Assembly (NCBI RefSeq): GCF_015234355.1
Contig: NZ_JADGMV010000001.1
Coordinates: forward strand, 372,001-436,000
Source of the DNA: Psychrobacter sp. NG25
GTDB taxonomy: Bacteria > Pseudomonadota > Gammaproteobacteria > Pseudomonadales > Moraxellaceae
Length of the DNA stretch: 64,000 bases
Direction: 5' to 3'
A model generated the notes under the pieces. That model made no database searches. It saw only the letters and a program-made list of their open reading frames with translations, and had not been told where the DNA came from. The translations under genes and the position numbers were made by a program. Below, piece by piece: positions 10,574 through 15,512 of this stretch. Every line of letters starts with the position of its first letter. Positions within the stretch are counted from its first letter, which is position 1.

Positions 10574-11854
10574 TTACTGTGATGCTGCTTGTGCTTTCTT
10601 TTCCCGCATGACTTTTAGATAGTCTTTTACCGCTTGATTGTGTGCAGCCAGACTATTGGTGAATTTGTGTCCACCTGTACCAGTCGCTACAAAATATAAT
10701 GCTTCGCTGTCTGCAGGGTGCAAAGTTGCTTCGATAGAAGCCGCTGATGGTAGCGCGATTGGTGTTGGTGGCAGGCCATCAATTTGATAGGTATTATAAG
10801 ACGTTTTTTCATTGATGTCTTTGCGGCGAATATTGCCGTCATAGCGACTGCCCATACCGTAGATAATGGTCGGATCAGTTTGCATACGCATGCCTTGATT
10901 CAGACGGTTTCTAAATACCGCCGACACCAATGGACGCTCTTCTGCCACACTGGTTTCTTTTTCGATAATAGATGCCATTACTAACGCTTCATAAGGTGTG
11001 CTATAAGGCAAGTTGGGCGCACGACCTTCCCATGCTTCGGTCAACGCTTGCTGCTGACGCTTATACAAATCCGTCAGTACCTGCTTATCAGTGGTATCCT
11101 CACCATAATAATAAGTATCAGGGGCAAACCAACCTTCGAGATTGTGATTGACGATAGGATCACTGTCATTGATGACCGACGCTGGCAAGATGCCGTCTAA
11201 CTCCAACGCTTTGGCAATACTGGCATTGTCGCTATCAGCAGTCAGTACCTCTTTTTTGATACCATCATTATCACGTAGTGTTTGGTACAAGTCTTTAGAG
11301 GTTTTACCCTCGATAATTTGCACCTTTACCATCGCCGCTTTTGCACCTTGTGCGAGCACTTGTAGCGCTTCGGCAATAGTAGGGTTTTCTGGTAACTGGT
11401 AAATGCCCGAATGTAATGGCGCATCGACTTGCGACTTGATGTAAAGCTTGGCCACGCTGGCAGAAAACAGCGGAATCTGCTGTTGCCACTGCGGCAGTAG
11501 ACCATAATAAGTCTGACCCTGCTCAATCGTAACCTTTTTTGCAGGCTGCTCGATACGTCCAAACAATGTCTGATAGACCATCACCAAGAAAAAAGCAGCA
11601 ATCAGCCCAAGCACGAGCAATACCTGATAACCACGCTGCATAAAGAACGATTGATTGTCCACTCTATACTGACGCGGTTTACTCTCTCCGCTGATCAGTG
11701 AAACATTAGTCGCGGGCTTATCCTCCACCCTATCCACTACCGGCTGCGAGTCTGGTAGTGTGGTATCGACACGCTCCTCAACGCTGCTATCTTTTTTATT
11801 CGATGGCTCATTATTAGGACGTTCAGGAGGCGTTTCAGGTGTAGGCGTGCTCAT
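10574..11854 (-). CDS. mltG: Endolytic murein transglycosylase
   Basis: MltG cleaves nascent peptidoglycan strands at the inner membrane and is thought to set glycan length. In 426 residues there is a proline/Asp/Ser-rich cytoplasmic N-terminus (1-75), one transmembrane helix (about 76-97) and a periplasmic YceG domain. The active-site block is clear: ASIIEKET with the catalytic Glu, then RNRLNQGMRMQTDPTIIYGMG, YNTYQIDGLPPTPI and ALYFVATGTGGHKF. The cytoplasmic tail is longer than in E. coli. It lies just upstream of tmk; pabC, its usual partner, is 2.6 kb further upstream because of the DpnI island. Confidence 0.95.
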   Translation of the reverse strand: MSTPTPETPPERPNNEPSNKKDSSVEERVDTTLPDSQPVVDRVEDKPATNVSLISGESKPRQYRVDNQSFFMQRGYQVLLVLGLIAAFFLVMVYQTLFGRIEQPAKKVTIEQGQTYYGLLPQWQQQIPLFSASVAKLYIKSQVDAPLHSGIYQLPENPTIAEALQVLAQGAKAAMVKVQIIEGKTSKDLYQTLRDNDGIKKEVLTADSDNASIAKALELDGILPASVINDSDPIVNHNLEGWFAPDTYYYGEDTTDKQVLTDLYKRQQQALTEAWEGRAPNLPYSTPYEALVMASIIEKETSVAEERPLVSAVFRNRLNQGMRMQTDPTIIYGMGSRYDGNIRRKDINEKTSYNTYQIDGLPPTPIALPSAASIEATLHPADSEALYFVATGTGGHKFTNSLAAHNQAVKDYLKVMREKKAQAASQ

Positions 11855-12024: not shown

Positions 12025-12789
12025 ATGAACCTACATTTTAATCAAAGTCTTGCCAAAAACTATCACTCTGAATCTCAAAAAGTTCGTGTACTCAGTGAAG
12101 CATGGGTGAAAGAAAACGGTTACTGCACCAATTGTAGCGTCCAATCTCTAGCTGAGTTCGCTAATAACAAACCTGTCGCCGATTTTTATTGCGGAAATTG
12201 TAATGAGCAATATGAGCTAAAAAGTAAAAAATCTAAATTAAGTAACATTATTAACGATGGTGCTTATAAGACGATGATTGAACGCATCAACAGTAAAGAC
12301 AATCCCAATTTTTTCTTCCTGACGTACTCAAAAGAATATACCGTCAATAACTTTTTAATTATCCCTAAGCAGTTCTTTAAGCCAGATATTATTATCAAGC
12401 GTAAGCCGTTATCAGCGACTGCCAAACGCGCAGGTTGGGTCGGCTGTAATATCGACTTACGCCAAGTACCAGAATCAGGCAAAGTATTTTTGGTCAAAAA
12501 TCAGCAAGTCATACCACGCAAAGATGTCAGCCAACAATTTCAAAAAACCTTGTTTTTACGAAAACAGTCTGTTGCTTCTCGTGGTTGGACACTCGATATC
12601 TGGCAGTGTATCGATAGACTCGATACTCATTTTTCGCTAAAGCAAGTTTATGCTTTTGCTGACGAGTTAAGATGCAAACACCCTGAGAATAATCACATTC
12701 TAGATAAAATCCGTCAGCAATTACAAGTATTACGAGATAAAGGCATTATTGAATTTGTGAGCCGTGGTCACTATCGAAAATCATACTAA
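12025..12789 (+). CDS. dpnC: DpnI-type methyl-directed restriction endonuclease
   Basis: 254 residues, collinear along its full length with the DpnI endonuclease as I remember it. DpnI (type IIM) cuts GATC only when the adenine is methylated. The N-terminal PD-(D/E)xK domain keeps Asp53 in PVADFY and Glu64/Lys66 in YELKSKK, and the zinc-binding pairs are C34-x2-C37 and C56-x2-C59. The central NDGAY.TM and NPNFFFLTY blocks and KRAGWVGCNIDL are present. The C-terminal winged-helix part, which also recognises methylated DNA, runs from about residue 185 and ends in IRQQLQVLRDKGIIEF. It needs no methyltransferase partner but implies the host does not methylate GATC. Its 3' end overlaps the next convergent gene by 4 bp. 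It sits between mltG and pabC, as part of an inserted island. Confidence 0.95.
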   Translation: MNLHFNQSLAKNYHSESQKVRVLSEAWVKENGYCTNCSVQSLAEFANNKPVADFYCGNCNEQYELKSKKSKLSNIINDGAYKTMIERINSKDNPNFFFLTYSKEYTVNNFLIIPKQFFKPDIIIKRKPLSATAKRAGWVGCNIDLRQVPESGKVFLVKNQQVIPRKDVSQQFQKTLFLRKQSVASRGWTLDIWQCIDRLDTHFSLKQVYAFADELRCKHPENNHILDKIRQQLQVLRDKGIIEFVSRGHYRKSY

Positions 12790-13280
12790 GAACACGTATC
12801 ATCCCATAATGGCAAATCCTTGGCAGCAACCAAACGACCATAAAATTTATGAGGAGGGTAATCTAGCTCTAGCTCATCATTTACTTTAAAAAAGTTCTTC
12901 ACATTGCCATCGATACAAGTATAAGCTCGATTTTTTACCTGTTTATTCCAGCTCATTAGCAGCCCTAACGGAGTGCGAGAAGCTTTAGTAAAAGCTTGTT
13001 TTTCGGTTGTAATTGCACACATCATAGTGTCTTCATGAAACCGCTTATCTAAACCTTGTTCGATGACTTCTTGACGGGTATGCGCATACTTAAACACACT
13101 CCCAAATGCTGTGTATTTTTTATCTTTCTTAGAATAAACAATACTAAATGCTATCTGTGAATAACAAGGTAAGTGAATTATTTCATCAGGGTTTCTTTTC
13201 GCTGCACAGCAAACTTTATTAAATATCATCAATCTACGAATTTGTAGTGGAATTCGTTTATCTTCATATGTAGTACGCAT
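12786..13280 (-). CDS. Unknown protein A of the DpnI island (paralogue of the 13.6-14.2 kb gene)
   Basis: 164 residues, no signal peptide or membrane segment, so probably cytoplasmic. I do not recognise the family. It is collinear with its neighbour at 13609-14175, sharing YED..IPLQIRRLM.F, DEIIHL, AFG.VF.YA.T, EVIEQ, WNK.VKNR and the C-terminal DYPPHKF..RLVA...LPLWDD, but it lacks the neighbour's last 25 residues. ATG 13280 is preceded by AGGGGA. It is transcribed towards dpnC and overlaps its end by 4 bp. Composition is AT-rich like the rest of the island. The conserved Arg-rich, Trp and Asp-Asp positions might be functional, but no catalytic motif can be named. Confidence 0.75.
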   Translation of the reverse strand: MRTTYEDKRIPLQIRRLMIFNKVCCAAKRNPDEIIHLPCYSQIAFSIVYSKKDKKYTAFGSVFKYAHTRQEVIEQGLDKRFHEDTMMCAITTEKQAFTKASRTPLGLLMSWNKQVKNRAYTCIDGNVKNFFKVNDELELDYPPHKFYGRLVAAKDLPLWDDTCS

Positions 13281-13608
13281 TTATTATCCCCTGTTAGATA
13301 ATATTGGATAGAATGCAATCATTGATCGATTAACATCAGTACGCAATACTCATTAACAAAAGACGATCAATTATGAAGAACGTTATTGGAGATATGCATC
13401 ACTCAATAGACTTCTTGAGAAAGTACCAGTGCATTAACTTCAATTGACGGAGCCGCAAAGGCTAGTGATGATTTATGTAAGAAGGCTGATACGTCATATA
13501 AACACAGTATCAAGATCATAATATTACAGCCGCTAAAATTTATTAGCAGCTATAACTATAAGTGGTAACTTGATTATGAGTTTCGTATAACATAGTAATT
13601 ATTTCGAA
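13281..13608. other. 328-bp spacer between the two island paralogues
   Basis: The right end next to gene A carries the duplicated box pair (13320-13369). An imperfect 9-bp hairpin (13531-13555 region, GCTAA/TTAGC core) lies downstream of the second paralogue without a T-tract. A 24-codon open frame at 13373 has no ribosome-binding site. Nothing else was recognised. Confidence 0.45.
13320..13369 (-). promoter_or_regulatory. Duplicated GATC-containing box pair upstream of gene A
   Basis: CATTGATCGATT (13320-13331) and TAACAAAAGACGATCA (13354-13369) are separated by 22 bp. Exactly the same two boxes with the same 22-bp spacing occur at 14203-14252 upstream of the paralogue, while the spacer sequence differs. 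The boxes lie 40-90 bp upstream of the start codon, so a promoter/operator role is plausible. Each box contains one GATC. Confidence 0.6.
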
Positions 13609-14175
13609 TTATATCAGACGCCTTTCATTATAACGTTCAGGTCTAGGTTCGCCTTGATTGTCACGGTATACATCTGCAATTAACTCATCTCTATCGTCCC
13701 ATAGTGGCAGACGAGCTGTCGCAACTAGACGGTCATGAAACTTATGCGGTGGATAATCCGAATCAATTTCATCATTTATCCGAAAAAAAATTTCTTCACG
13801 ATAGTCAACATAAGCATGCATTCTATTCTTTACATATTTATTCCAATACCATACTAATTGTATAGGTGTACTAACTGGGCGAGTAAACTGCTTTAAATTA
13901 ACAGTTAGCGCACACTTTACTGGCTCATCGTTAGGAAAAATGCGAATACGTTGCTCAATAACTTCTTCGGGTGTTTGTGCATACTCAAACACACCACCAA
14001 AGGCTATAAATTTCTTGAAATCCTTTAGATACATAACTCCTAGCGATAACTGAGTAAATTTTGATAAATGAATAATTTCATCAGGTTCTTTCTTCGCTAA
14101 TTTACAGATTTCATCAAAAACCATCAAACGACGGATTTGTAGCGGGATACTTTCATCTTCATAAACTTCATACAT
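13609..14175 (-). CDS. Unknown protein B of the DpnI island (paralogue of the 12.8-13.3 kb gene)
   Basis: 188 residues, soluble, family not recognised. By eye about half of the residues match protein A, in one gap-poor alignment from YEDESIPLQIRRLMVF to DYPPHKFHDRLVATARLPLWDD. It then continues with a charged, Arg-rich tail (RDELIADVYRDNQGE...) absent from A. ATG 14175 has AAGGAG at 8-bp spacing. It is divergent from the DpnD-like gene, sharing a 152-bp promoter region. Tandem duplication of the gene together with its upstream boxes is the simplest history. Function unknown; the setting suggests a role in, or dependence on, the DpnI system, which is inference only. Confidence 0.78.
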   Translation of the reverse strand: MYEVYEDESIPLQIRRLMVFDEICKLAKKEPDEIIHLSKFTQLSLGVMYLKDFKKFIAFGGVFEYAQTPEEVIEQRIRIFPNDEPVKCALTVNLKQFTRPVSTPIQLVWYWNKYVKNRMHAYVDYREEIFFRINDEIDSDYPPHKFHDRLVATARLPLWDDRDELIADVYRDNQGEPRPERYNERRLI

Positions 14176-14202
14176 TGACTTATCTCCTTGTTAGATAAGC
14201 AG

Positions 14203-14252
14203 CATTGATCGATTTGCTTTAAGACACAAGACCACGTAACAAAAGACGATCA
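14203..14252. promoter_or_regulatory. GATC-containing box pair in the dpnD / gene B divergent region
   Basis: CATTGATCGATT (14203-14214) and TAACAAAAGACGATCA (14237-14252), 22 bp apart, match the pair at 13320-13369 perfectly. Because dpnD is divergent from gene B, the boxes could act on both. The 5' leaders of the two paralogues also share TATCTAACA ahead of the ribosome-binding site. Confidence 0.6.
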
Positions 14253-14327
14253 CTTCTGTTGAGCGCTTTTGCTAATCTAGTTGGCATTGATGACTGAAGT
14301 TATTTGTGAGAAATGGAAGTGAATACG

Positions 14328-14516
14328 ATGAAAAAAGATGAGAAAGCAGCACAAAAATTTCAAATAGAGATTGTGGAAACGCTGAGTAATATCGTGGAAG
14401 TAAATGCTGAAGATGAGCAAGATGCTCTGATGAAAGCGCAAAAGATGTATAGAAATGAGCAAGTGGTTTTATATCCCGATGATTTTATCGATACCAAATT
14501 CAATATTTTTCAATAA
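14328..14516 (+). CDS. dpnD: DpnD/PcfM-like small protein
   Basis: 62 residues from the ATG at 14328, which has GGAAG upstream; an in-frame ATG at 14313 would add five residues but has no Shine-Dalgarno. The segment FQIEIVETLSNIVEVNAEDE followed by a helix (QDALMKAQKMYRNEQ) and VVLYPDDFIDTKFNIF matches the DpnD/PcfM C-terminal domain pattern as I know it: two strands, alternating hydrophobic residues, an ETLS motif, then a Tyr-containing helix and a DF motif. DpnD is the second protein of the pneumococcal DpnI cassette and its function is undescribed. It ends 3 bp from the convergent pabC stop, which marks the island's right edge. Confidence 0.78.
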   Translation: MKKDEKAAQKFQIEIVETLSNIVEVNAEDEQDALMKAQKMYRNEQVVLYPDDFIDTKFNIFQ

Positions 14517-14519
14517 TAG

Positions 14520-15512
14520 TTAAACGGATTGAAAATCCACAACCTCACCAGATAATAATGTCAGATTATTCATTGGCATGATGCCGCGTAATGCATTACA
14601 AAAGAATAACTGCGTCAATTTGGGCAAATCCTCATCTTGTAACGACCTTATCACAACTGGATATTCCGTCGTAGATAGTGCATCGATAATCACTTGCCGC
14701 ATAACGCCAGCGACACCCGATTGCGTCATAGATGGCGTATACCACTGGCCAGTGGTTAGGTAATTTTCATTATCTTCATGAGCGCTAGAAGTGGTTTCGG
14801 ATTCTGATAGTGGTGATTCTGCCAATTGATAGAATACATTGCTCATCGTGCCCTCAACCCACTGCCCGCTCATATCGCGCAGCAGTCCTTCACTAAGTTT
14901 TGAAGCAAGTTCAGATGCCAATGGCTCAGCTTTTATACGCTGTAGCTCACCACTAGCGAGGACATTATCTAAACGACTGAGGCTTTTGAGACCTGCCAGC
15001 GGTGGCGGTAAGCAAGCAATCTGAGAGGACAAACATATTGCAGAGGCACTAGGTTGGATGGGTACCAAGCTCCCATCGGGCAAAGACAATTGCAGCGCCG
15101 TAGTGACTCTCATGGTCGCAGCCTTTAGCCACATCTCACAGTCGCTGCCATTTGCACTAGGTGTATAACCATAACCGCGCACATCCTGCGTAGCGCGGGT
15201 TACTACCAGTTTGAGCATTCCTTGCTGTAATTGCTGGGCGTACAGTTGCAATACTGCTAATAGCTCTTCGCTGTTTATATTTAGCTGCAACGCATTGGCA
15301 TGAGAGACAAGCCGCTGATAATGATAGTCTGACCACAGTATCAACCCATCGATGACGCCCATAGTAGTAAAGAACCCATCAGCGTATGCCAGTCCGCGAT
15401 TATCTAGAGACATCATTACCGTTGGGTCAATCGCCCCATTATCTTCGATTACCCTGTTGTCTTGTGGGTACAGACATACCCAGCCGTTCGGCACTGACAT
15501 CGTATCTATCAT
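14520..15512 (-). CDS. pabC: Aminodeoxychorismate lyase
   Basis: PabC is a PLP-dependent fold-type IV enzyme that releases pyruvate from 4-amino-4-deoxychorismate to give p-aminobenzoate for folate. The PLP lysine is in GLKSLSRLDNVLA, the early SLDNRGLAYADGFF and the VEGTMSNVF and GVAGVMRQ blocks are all present. At 330 residues it is longer than E. coli PabC (269); the extra sequence includes a Ser/Glu-rich loop (LAESPLSESETTSSAHEDNE). Transcribed just after the lipoprotein gene (3-bp gap). In relatives mltG follows directly; here the DpnI island intervenes. Confidence 0.93.
   Translation of the reverse strand: MIDTMSVPNGWVCLYPQDNRVIEDNGAIDPTVMMSLDNRGLAYADGFFTTMGVIDGLILWSDYHYQRLVSHANALQLNINSEELLAVLQLYAQQLQQGMLKLVVTRATQDVRGYGYTPSANGSDCEMWLKAATMRVTTALQLSLPDGSLVPIQPSASAICLSSQIACLPPPLAGLKSLSRLDNVLASGELQRIKAEPLASELASKLSEGLLRDMSGQWVEGTMSNVFYQLAESPLSESETTSSAHEDNENYLTTGQWYTPSMTQSGVAGVMRQVIIDALSTTEYPVVIRSLQDEDLPKLTQLFFCNALRGIMPMNNLTLLSGEVVDFQSV

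Follow-up and report, generated by a model that had tools for sequence, protein, structure and literature searches.

A Psychrobacter gene family locked to a DpnI-type restriction cassette at a locus exchanging GATC systems

The restriction cassette considered here lies in 64,000 nucleotides of Psychrobacter sp. NG25 DNA (the window; contig NZ_JADGMV010000001.1, positions 372,001–436,000; genome G000, 3.39 Mb). It comprises homologues of dpnI and dpnD with two related genes, P2 and P1, between them. The family formed by these two, called P, is an accessory gene family locked to the DpnI-type cassette at an exchange locus, and most P genes stand behind an element with two GATC sites at a fixed distance. 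As far as the literature searched shows, this P cassette, real and cassette-locked, is newly described. Its anatomy is well supported; the control function that we infer for P is a model open to testing.

Gene content of the cassette

The dpnI homologue (12025..12789, + strand) encodes a putative methyl-dependent GATC endonuclease of 254 residues with catalytic and winged-helix domains. It scores 275 bits against Pfam DpnI (PF06044, cut-off 26.7) and 110.1 bits against the winged-helix family DpnI_C (PF17726, cut-off 23), and the solved DpnI structure 4esj aligns to its residues 1–252 (E 7.9e-97). Asp53, Glu64, Lys66 and two CxxC pairs are kept, presumably in the roles they have in DpnI. The dpnD gene (14313..14516, + strand; 67 residues) belongs to the DpnD/PcfM family, with 46.2 bits against PF14207 (DpnD-PcfM), over the gathering score of 25. 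A first inspection of the DNA made without database searches (the sequence-only reading) had named both proteins, including these residues and CxxC pairs of the endonuclease, and the profiles, the structure and the residue check bear it out.

P2 (12786..13280; 164 residues, computed isoelectric point (pI) 9.2) and P1 (13609..14175; 188 residues, computed pI 5.5) lie in tandem on the − strand, convergent with dpnI and divergent from dpnD, with the 3′ ends of dpnI and P2 overlapping by 4 base pairs (bp). The two proteins are 50% identical over 161 residues, P1 having in addition a C-terminal extension. They are, as first supposed, paralogues of a family that no library names: neither has a match in PADLOC or PHROGs, nor one above the curated cut-offs of Pfam and NCBIfam. 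Sub-threshold rows of P1 for HepT-like_2 (E 0.014), RNA_pol_Rbc25 (E 0.042) and YafC (E 0.0047) were taken as chance.

Linkage of P to DpnI and DpnD

In a survey of 105 Psychrobacter genomes, where match counts include fragments, P was found in 65, DpnI in 84 and DpnD in 75. A DpnI match is present in 64 of the 65 P genomes; P and DpnI lie within 1.5 kb on one contig in 63 of them, and the 64th (G037) has fragments only, on two contigs. The sole P genome without a DpnI match, G047, carries P and DpnD. Each of the 85 P matches has DpnI or DpnD nearby, and paralogues placed mostly away from DpnI, a distribution looked for as evidence against a shared module, were not found (0/85 away from the cassette). 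DpnD stands near DpnI or P in each of its 75 genomes. The commonest gene order, dpnI, reversed P, dpnD, occurs in 39 genomes. One P gene is usual and two are a local expansion: reading of the gene-order listing gives two P genes, some of them broken, in 16 of the 65 P genomes. The earlier assignment of the paralogues to the same module as DpnI is upheld by this linkage, although the two copies of the window are not the rule.

The pairing is strict from the side of P but not universal from that of DpnI, since 20 of the 84 DpnI genomes are without P. In 13 of those 20, dpnI is followed by dpnD with nothing or another gene between, and in two of the 13 (G017 and G097) the P slot is filled by an unrelated gene, X166 (L076:795-1286, + strand; L077:1297-1788, − strand), behind the same GATC element as P. 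X166 matches phrog_874 weakly (E 8.8e-4) and, by eye, we take it to resemble ASCH-like phage proteins. That it is a diverged P was rejected on profile comparison (probability 0.3%).

P was not found outside Psychrobacter and is restricted to it in the collections searched. A scan of the class gave a match in one of 369 genomes, that of the window itself, and a scan of the family gave matches in one of 16 genera among 199 genomes. All 46 P loci from genome_contigs are titled Psychrobacter, in a pattern-based search that could miss distant members. P1 has no match among phages and plasmids, and none in viral contigs.

The DpnI–DpnD pairing extends past Psychrobacter, and P does not. Among 398 genomes of the phylum, PF06044 is over cut-off in nine, seven of them outside Psychrobacter. 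DpnD, searched with the Psychrobacter profile, adjoins DpnI in two of these seven proteobacterial genomes (G547, with overlapping genes, and G482), which carries beyond the genus the pairing of the two genes that the sequence-only reading had stressed; in G622 the contig ends just past dpnI. The gonococcal drg locus examined shows no DpnD match and has an M2-like methylase match nearby. Two gonococcal records (NZ_CP119142.1 and NZ_CP119140.1) are filed as plasmids and measure 2.17 Mb, the size of a chromosome. Matches to the C-terminal domain of DpnI alone were seen in a contig of the phage collection (MT837571.1:6356-6583) and, in four Lactiplantibacillus plasmids, in genes annotated as sigma-70 family factors.

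Selection and predicted fold of P

Sixty distinct P coding sequences were compared for the ratio of non-synonymous to synonymous substitution rates (dN/dS). The median of 0.13 (range 0.04–0.46; 149 pairs with dS 0.05–1.0) indicates purifying selection, and P is therefore a real gene and not a chance reading frame. A chimeric second P in G095 (L010:2396-2959) has a P2-like first half and a P1-like second half, which suggests recombination between paralogues.

Two AlphaFold models were made, the first from 32 sequences (mean predicted local distance difference test (pLDDT) 76.7, predicted template modelling score (pTM) 0.72) and the second from 52 (mean pLDDT 72.3, pTM 0.69). Foldseek returned nothing at E ≤ 0.001 against the PDB with either model or against viral models with the first. 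The best VIA-align match of the models, YkuJ (Z 4.3–4.6), was treated as a common small arrangement and no fold is claimed from it. The modified-base-reading domain of McrB matches model 1 weakly (eight of the 15 listed rows; Z 2.3–2.7, root-mean-square deviation 3.7–5.2), in alignments covering 75–88 residues, and McrB rows were not seen with model 2.

A locus exchanging GATC systems

In the window, the cassette is flanked on the left by an mltG/yceG-like gene (10574..11854, − strand; Pfam YceG, 263.5 bits), divergent from dpnI and adjoining its start, and on the right by a pabC-like class IV aminotransferase gene (14520..15512, − strand; Pfam Aminotran_4, 103.3 bits), adjoining the end of dpnD. 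This fixed mltG–pabC locus swaps GATC systems of opposite methylation among Psychrobacter strains. Dam is over cut-off in 17 of the 105 genomes, 12 without DpnI and five with it; DpnI occurs without Dam in 79, and nine have neither. In the 10 Dam genomes without DpnI whose flanks were compared (G079 and G093 being left out of the 12), Dam and a second methylase (M2) adjoin mltG in all 10, and pabC lies at the far side in nine (G074 showed none). The window's own genome has no match to TIGR00571 (Dam) at E ≤ 0.001, other methylase families not having been searched.

Dam loci carry further genes of possible interest for restriction. A 226-residue gene is convergent with Dam in six of the 10 loci (L165:818-1495 and five further). 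It belongs to no Pfam family, matches phrog_15364 (E 2.3e-11; function not assigned in PHROGs) and may encode an undescribed GATC endonuclease. A 460-residue gene at one of the 10 loci (L160) is another endonuclease candidate. Neither this gene nor that of L165 has a DpnII Pfam match, the PF04556 genes lying on other contigs. Proteins with DUF6997, DUF7226 and DUF6996, which adjoin Dam at L160:165-1544 and L203:4879-6168 (M2 being also present in L160), are probable restriction endonucleases.

The five genomes with both DpnI and a Dam-family gene (G007, G039, G064, G073 and G083) encode DpnI over its full length, and every residue tested is kept. In three of them (G007, G039 and G064) a true DpnII gene (PF04556, 296–301 bits) follows Dam on contigs of 5.8–8.7 kb, and that of G064 also carries a Rep3 initiator. 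The Dam contigs found in genomes with intact DpnI are L197 (G064:C20), L198 (G007:C37), L199 (G039:C56) and L203 (G073:C242), the last with Dam beside a DUF6996/6997/7226 endonuclease candidate. By what DpnI is expected to cut, such contigs together with intact DpnI should be lethal, unless DpnI is off or restrained or the contigs are contamination.

Avoidance of GATC in the cassette

Relative to expectations from synonymous-codon shuffling, GATC is strongly depleted in 68 dpnI open reading frames (ORFs; 16 seen against 135.3 expected, ratio 0.12) and in 67 P ORFs (18 against 95.0, 0.19), and little reduced in dpnD (13 against 17.6, 0.74); the ratio is 0.70 for 37 other long ORFs of the window. 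In neither dpnI nor P was a loss of this size seen for any of seven further palindromic tetramers. Loss of GATC is not confined to the cassette, because the flanking genes are also reduced, mltG and pabC having ratios of 0.31 and 0.35 at DpnI loci and of 0.49 and 0.42 at Dam loci; genes of Dam cassettes range from 0.53 to 0.81. No clear loss was seen in four Dpn-type genes outside Psychrobacter.

Upstream of dpnI, 39 loci contain four GATC in 7,800 bp, against 30.5 expected at 1 in 256. In the cassette of the window the four coding sequences contain none and the intergenic DNA five, four of which form two 41-bp pairs. GATC being purged elsewhere in the cassette, the invariant pair stands out at one place.

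The GATC element upstream of P

One pair belongs to an element upstream of P2 (13318..13369, − strand; GATC at 13324 and 13365) and the other to an element that precedes P1 in the space shared with the divergent dpnD (14201..14252, − strand; GATC at 14207 and 14248); the sites are 41 bp apart in both. The consensus is gAAgTGATCGTCTTTTGTtA-(N)-CTTGTG-(N)-AATcGATCAATGAT. In a test made without selection for GATC, the arrangement GATC-N37-GATC precedes 59 of 61 distinct leading P genes, and the two without it are second copies, either truncated or with the upstream copy on another contig; tandem second copies have the pair in none of five cases. With identical spacing, the 16 palindromic tetramers gave 59 for GATC, two for TTAA, one for GCGC and zero for the rest. 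When elements were anchored on non-GATC bases (TNTTGT-N9-TTG), both GATC1 and GATC2 were kept in all 43 distinct elements and a third site, GATC3, was present in 21; both sites were also kept in all 13 representatives below 80% identity.

At up to three mismatches the element occurs at 71 places in 63 of the 105 genomes, never more than 600 bp from a cassette gene, and the reversed control pattern has no match in the rows of all 105. With 71 of 71 matches at the cassette, a genome-wide regulon site was rejected. Sixty of the 65 P genomes are among those matched. Of the five missed, three still show a GATC pair in diverged form (G001, G077, via its named locus, and G078); in G005 and G086, P is present as fragments. 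The element occurs without P in three genomes, before X166 in G017 and G097 and in G041, where the slot is empty and dpnI is broken. An RNA element at the cassette was rejected, the one Rfam row being sub-threshold and outside P.

Possible roles of P

P may be the control or immunity gene of the cassette, placed behind a methylation-responsive promoter and restraining DpnI when the cell's own GATC sites are methylated. This proposal is tentative and held with low confidence. Two features absent from the sequence-only reading, the GATC element and the alternation with Dam systems, point towards regulation or immunity but do not prove it, and in placement the conserved sites upstream of P agree with what is expected of a Dam-responsive promoter. 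A candidate P promoter can be discerned by eye in the element, with a −35 box TTGTG[CT], 17 bp and a −10 box AATGAT, in which TTG and the A and T at −10 positions 2 and 6 are invariant. GATC2 would lie just upstream of the −10 box, GATC3, in about half of the elements, would overlap it, and GATC1 would lie ∼20 bp upstream of the −35 box, towards dpnD. Methylation of these sites would alter how a cassette protein or RNA polymerase binds there, and with it the output of P; the P protein, or X166 in two genomes, would then restrain DpnI for as long as Gm6ATC is present in the cell's own DNA. Restraint would be called for on entry of a Dam plasmid or prophage, and in the generations after a DpnI cassette has recombined in for a Dam cassette, while the chromosome is still methylated. 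The complete scheme, an epigenetic fail-safe in which the 41-bp GATC pair senses methylation and switches P or X166 so that DpnI is held off until self-DNA is unmethylated, is rather unlikely.

Several observations weigh against a control function. No Pfam helix-turn-helix (HTH) domain matches P1 or P2 even at E ≤ 10, and the promoter scan gave no excess of sigma-70-like promoters (12 against 11.4 in shuffles) and did not list the proposed one. P occurs in two of the five genomes with DpnI and Dam, three being without it, against 62 of the 79 with DpnI only. DpnI and Dam can thus coexist without P, which speaks against P as the only protection, and these counts slightly lowered a confidence that was already low; on the same counts, the idea that P occurs mainly where Dam is present was rejected. 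Broken P copies beside a DpnI match are many (e.g. in G005, G016 and G090), so P is dispensable at times. The tendency of DpnI and Dam to occur apart (Fisher p 5.8e-7) comes from related sequences and a statistic that ignores kinship. Finally, bases of the element other than GATC are also invariant (TTTTGT, TTG and AA next to GATC2), and GATC may therefore be part of an ordinary operator.

Such an operator, in which methylation has no part and the GATC sequence is incidental, would be the promoter or operator of a cassette regulator (P, DpnD or the winged helix of DpnI) recognizing TGATCG/CGATCA half-sites, P being an autoregulator or a structural partner. This is conceivable, and to be entertained with reserve. 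Apart from the invariance reaching beyond GATC, it agrees with the inversion of the half-sites, about four helical turns apart, and with the cassette-specificity of the element in the 105 genomes, a sign that its binder may be encoded in the cassette. It accounts less readily for a GATC core that is kept where the flanks change, as in G078 (TTGATCTAT and TTTGATCAATAA), and for GATC being otherwise purged from the dpnI and P coding sequences; moreover, an element that also precedes X166, without detectable relation to P, makes P improbable as the sole binder.

A constitutive role as an extra restriction effector, or as a partner widening the action of DpnI (e.g. a modified-DNA reader or a factor countering anti-restriction by phages), is rather improbable. 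The strict linkage to DpnI would suit it, as would the changes in copy number and the P2/P1 chimera of G095, which suggest diversification, and the McrB-domain matches of one of the two models. These matches, however, are below a useful level and do not recur with the second model, Foldseek gives nothing at its threshold, and the low dN/dS of P is not that of positive selection. That P is passenger cargo retained through linkage alone, as the swapping of whole gene sets, a dpnI–dpnD slot holding P, X166 or nothing, and several broken copies might suggest, is very unlikely given purifying selection, the conserved upstream element and the lack of any P off the cassette in 105 genomes.

Implications

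Two questions have long stood for these systems: how a host with a methylation-dependent nuclease survives the arrival of a Dam gene, and how strains move from the DpnI to the Dam/DpnII state or back. If the control function proposed for P is true, strains could pass between Dam-positive and Dam-negative states at one locus without suicide. We know of no described restriction system with methylation-sensing control logic of this kind. In Psychrobacter, bacteria that are not pathogens and are amenable to laboratory work, a series of both alleles is found in nature at a single locus, along with a short sequence that may act as the sensor and a gene that may exert the control. For the unexplained DpnD, the cassette adds a genomic context that includes a further partner gene.

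Comparison with known systems

C proteins of type II restriction–modification systems prevent self-damage on entry into a new host. The role proposed for P would be analogous, as a control for a methylation-dependent enzyme, although P, unlike C proteins, has no recognized HTH domain. Dam-responsive promoters include pap and agn43. The sci1 promoter is also reported to be of this kind (PMC3145626). The element upstream of P resembles it in having GATC sites at fixed regulatory positions, whereas the hosts of sci1-type promoters carry Dam and that of the window, without a Dam match, carries a putative methyl-GATC nuclease.

In Neisseria, drg (dam-replacing gene) is described as a DpnI homologue sitting where dam otherwise sits (PMC4269198; PMC516771). 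The gonococcal copy is 48% identical to DpnI of the window and its locus otherwise holds dam, as in the exchange seen here, but drg lies at a different chromosomal site (leuS) and has no P. A regulatory role was proposed for the winged helix of drg (PMC4269198), and the two domains of DpnI are reported to be each separately specific for Gm6ATC (PMC4117772). The closest parallel in arrangement is the DpnI cassette of S. pneumoniae (dpnC, dpnD), described as alternating with DpnII (PMC3573125; PMC12707154). Unlike that cassette, the one in the window has two P genes between, in the opposite orientation, with a GATC-pair element known from the Psychrobacter side only; like it, the Psychrobacter system joins DpnI and DpnD-family genes at one locus, where the alternative is a Dam-containing system, opposite in methylation.

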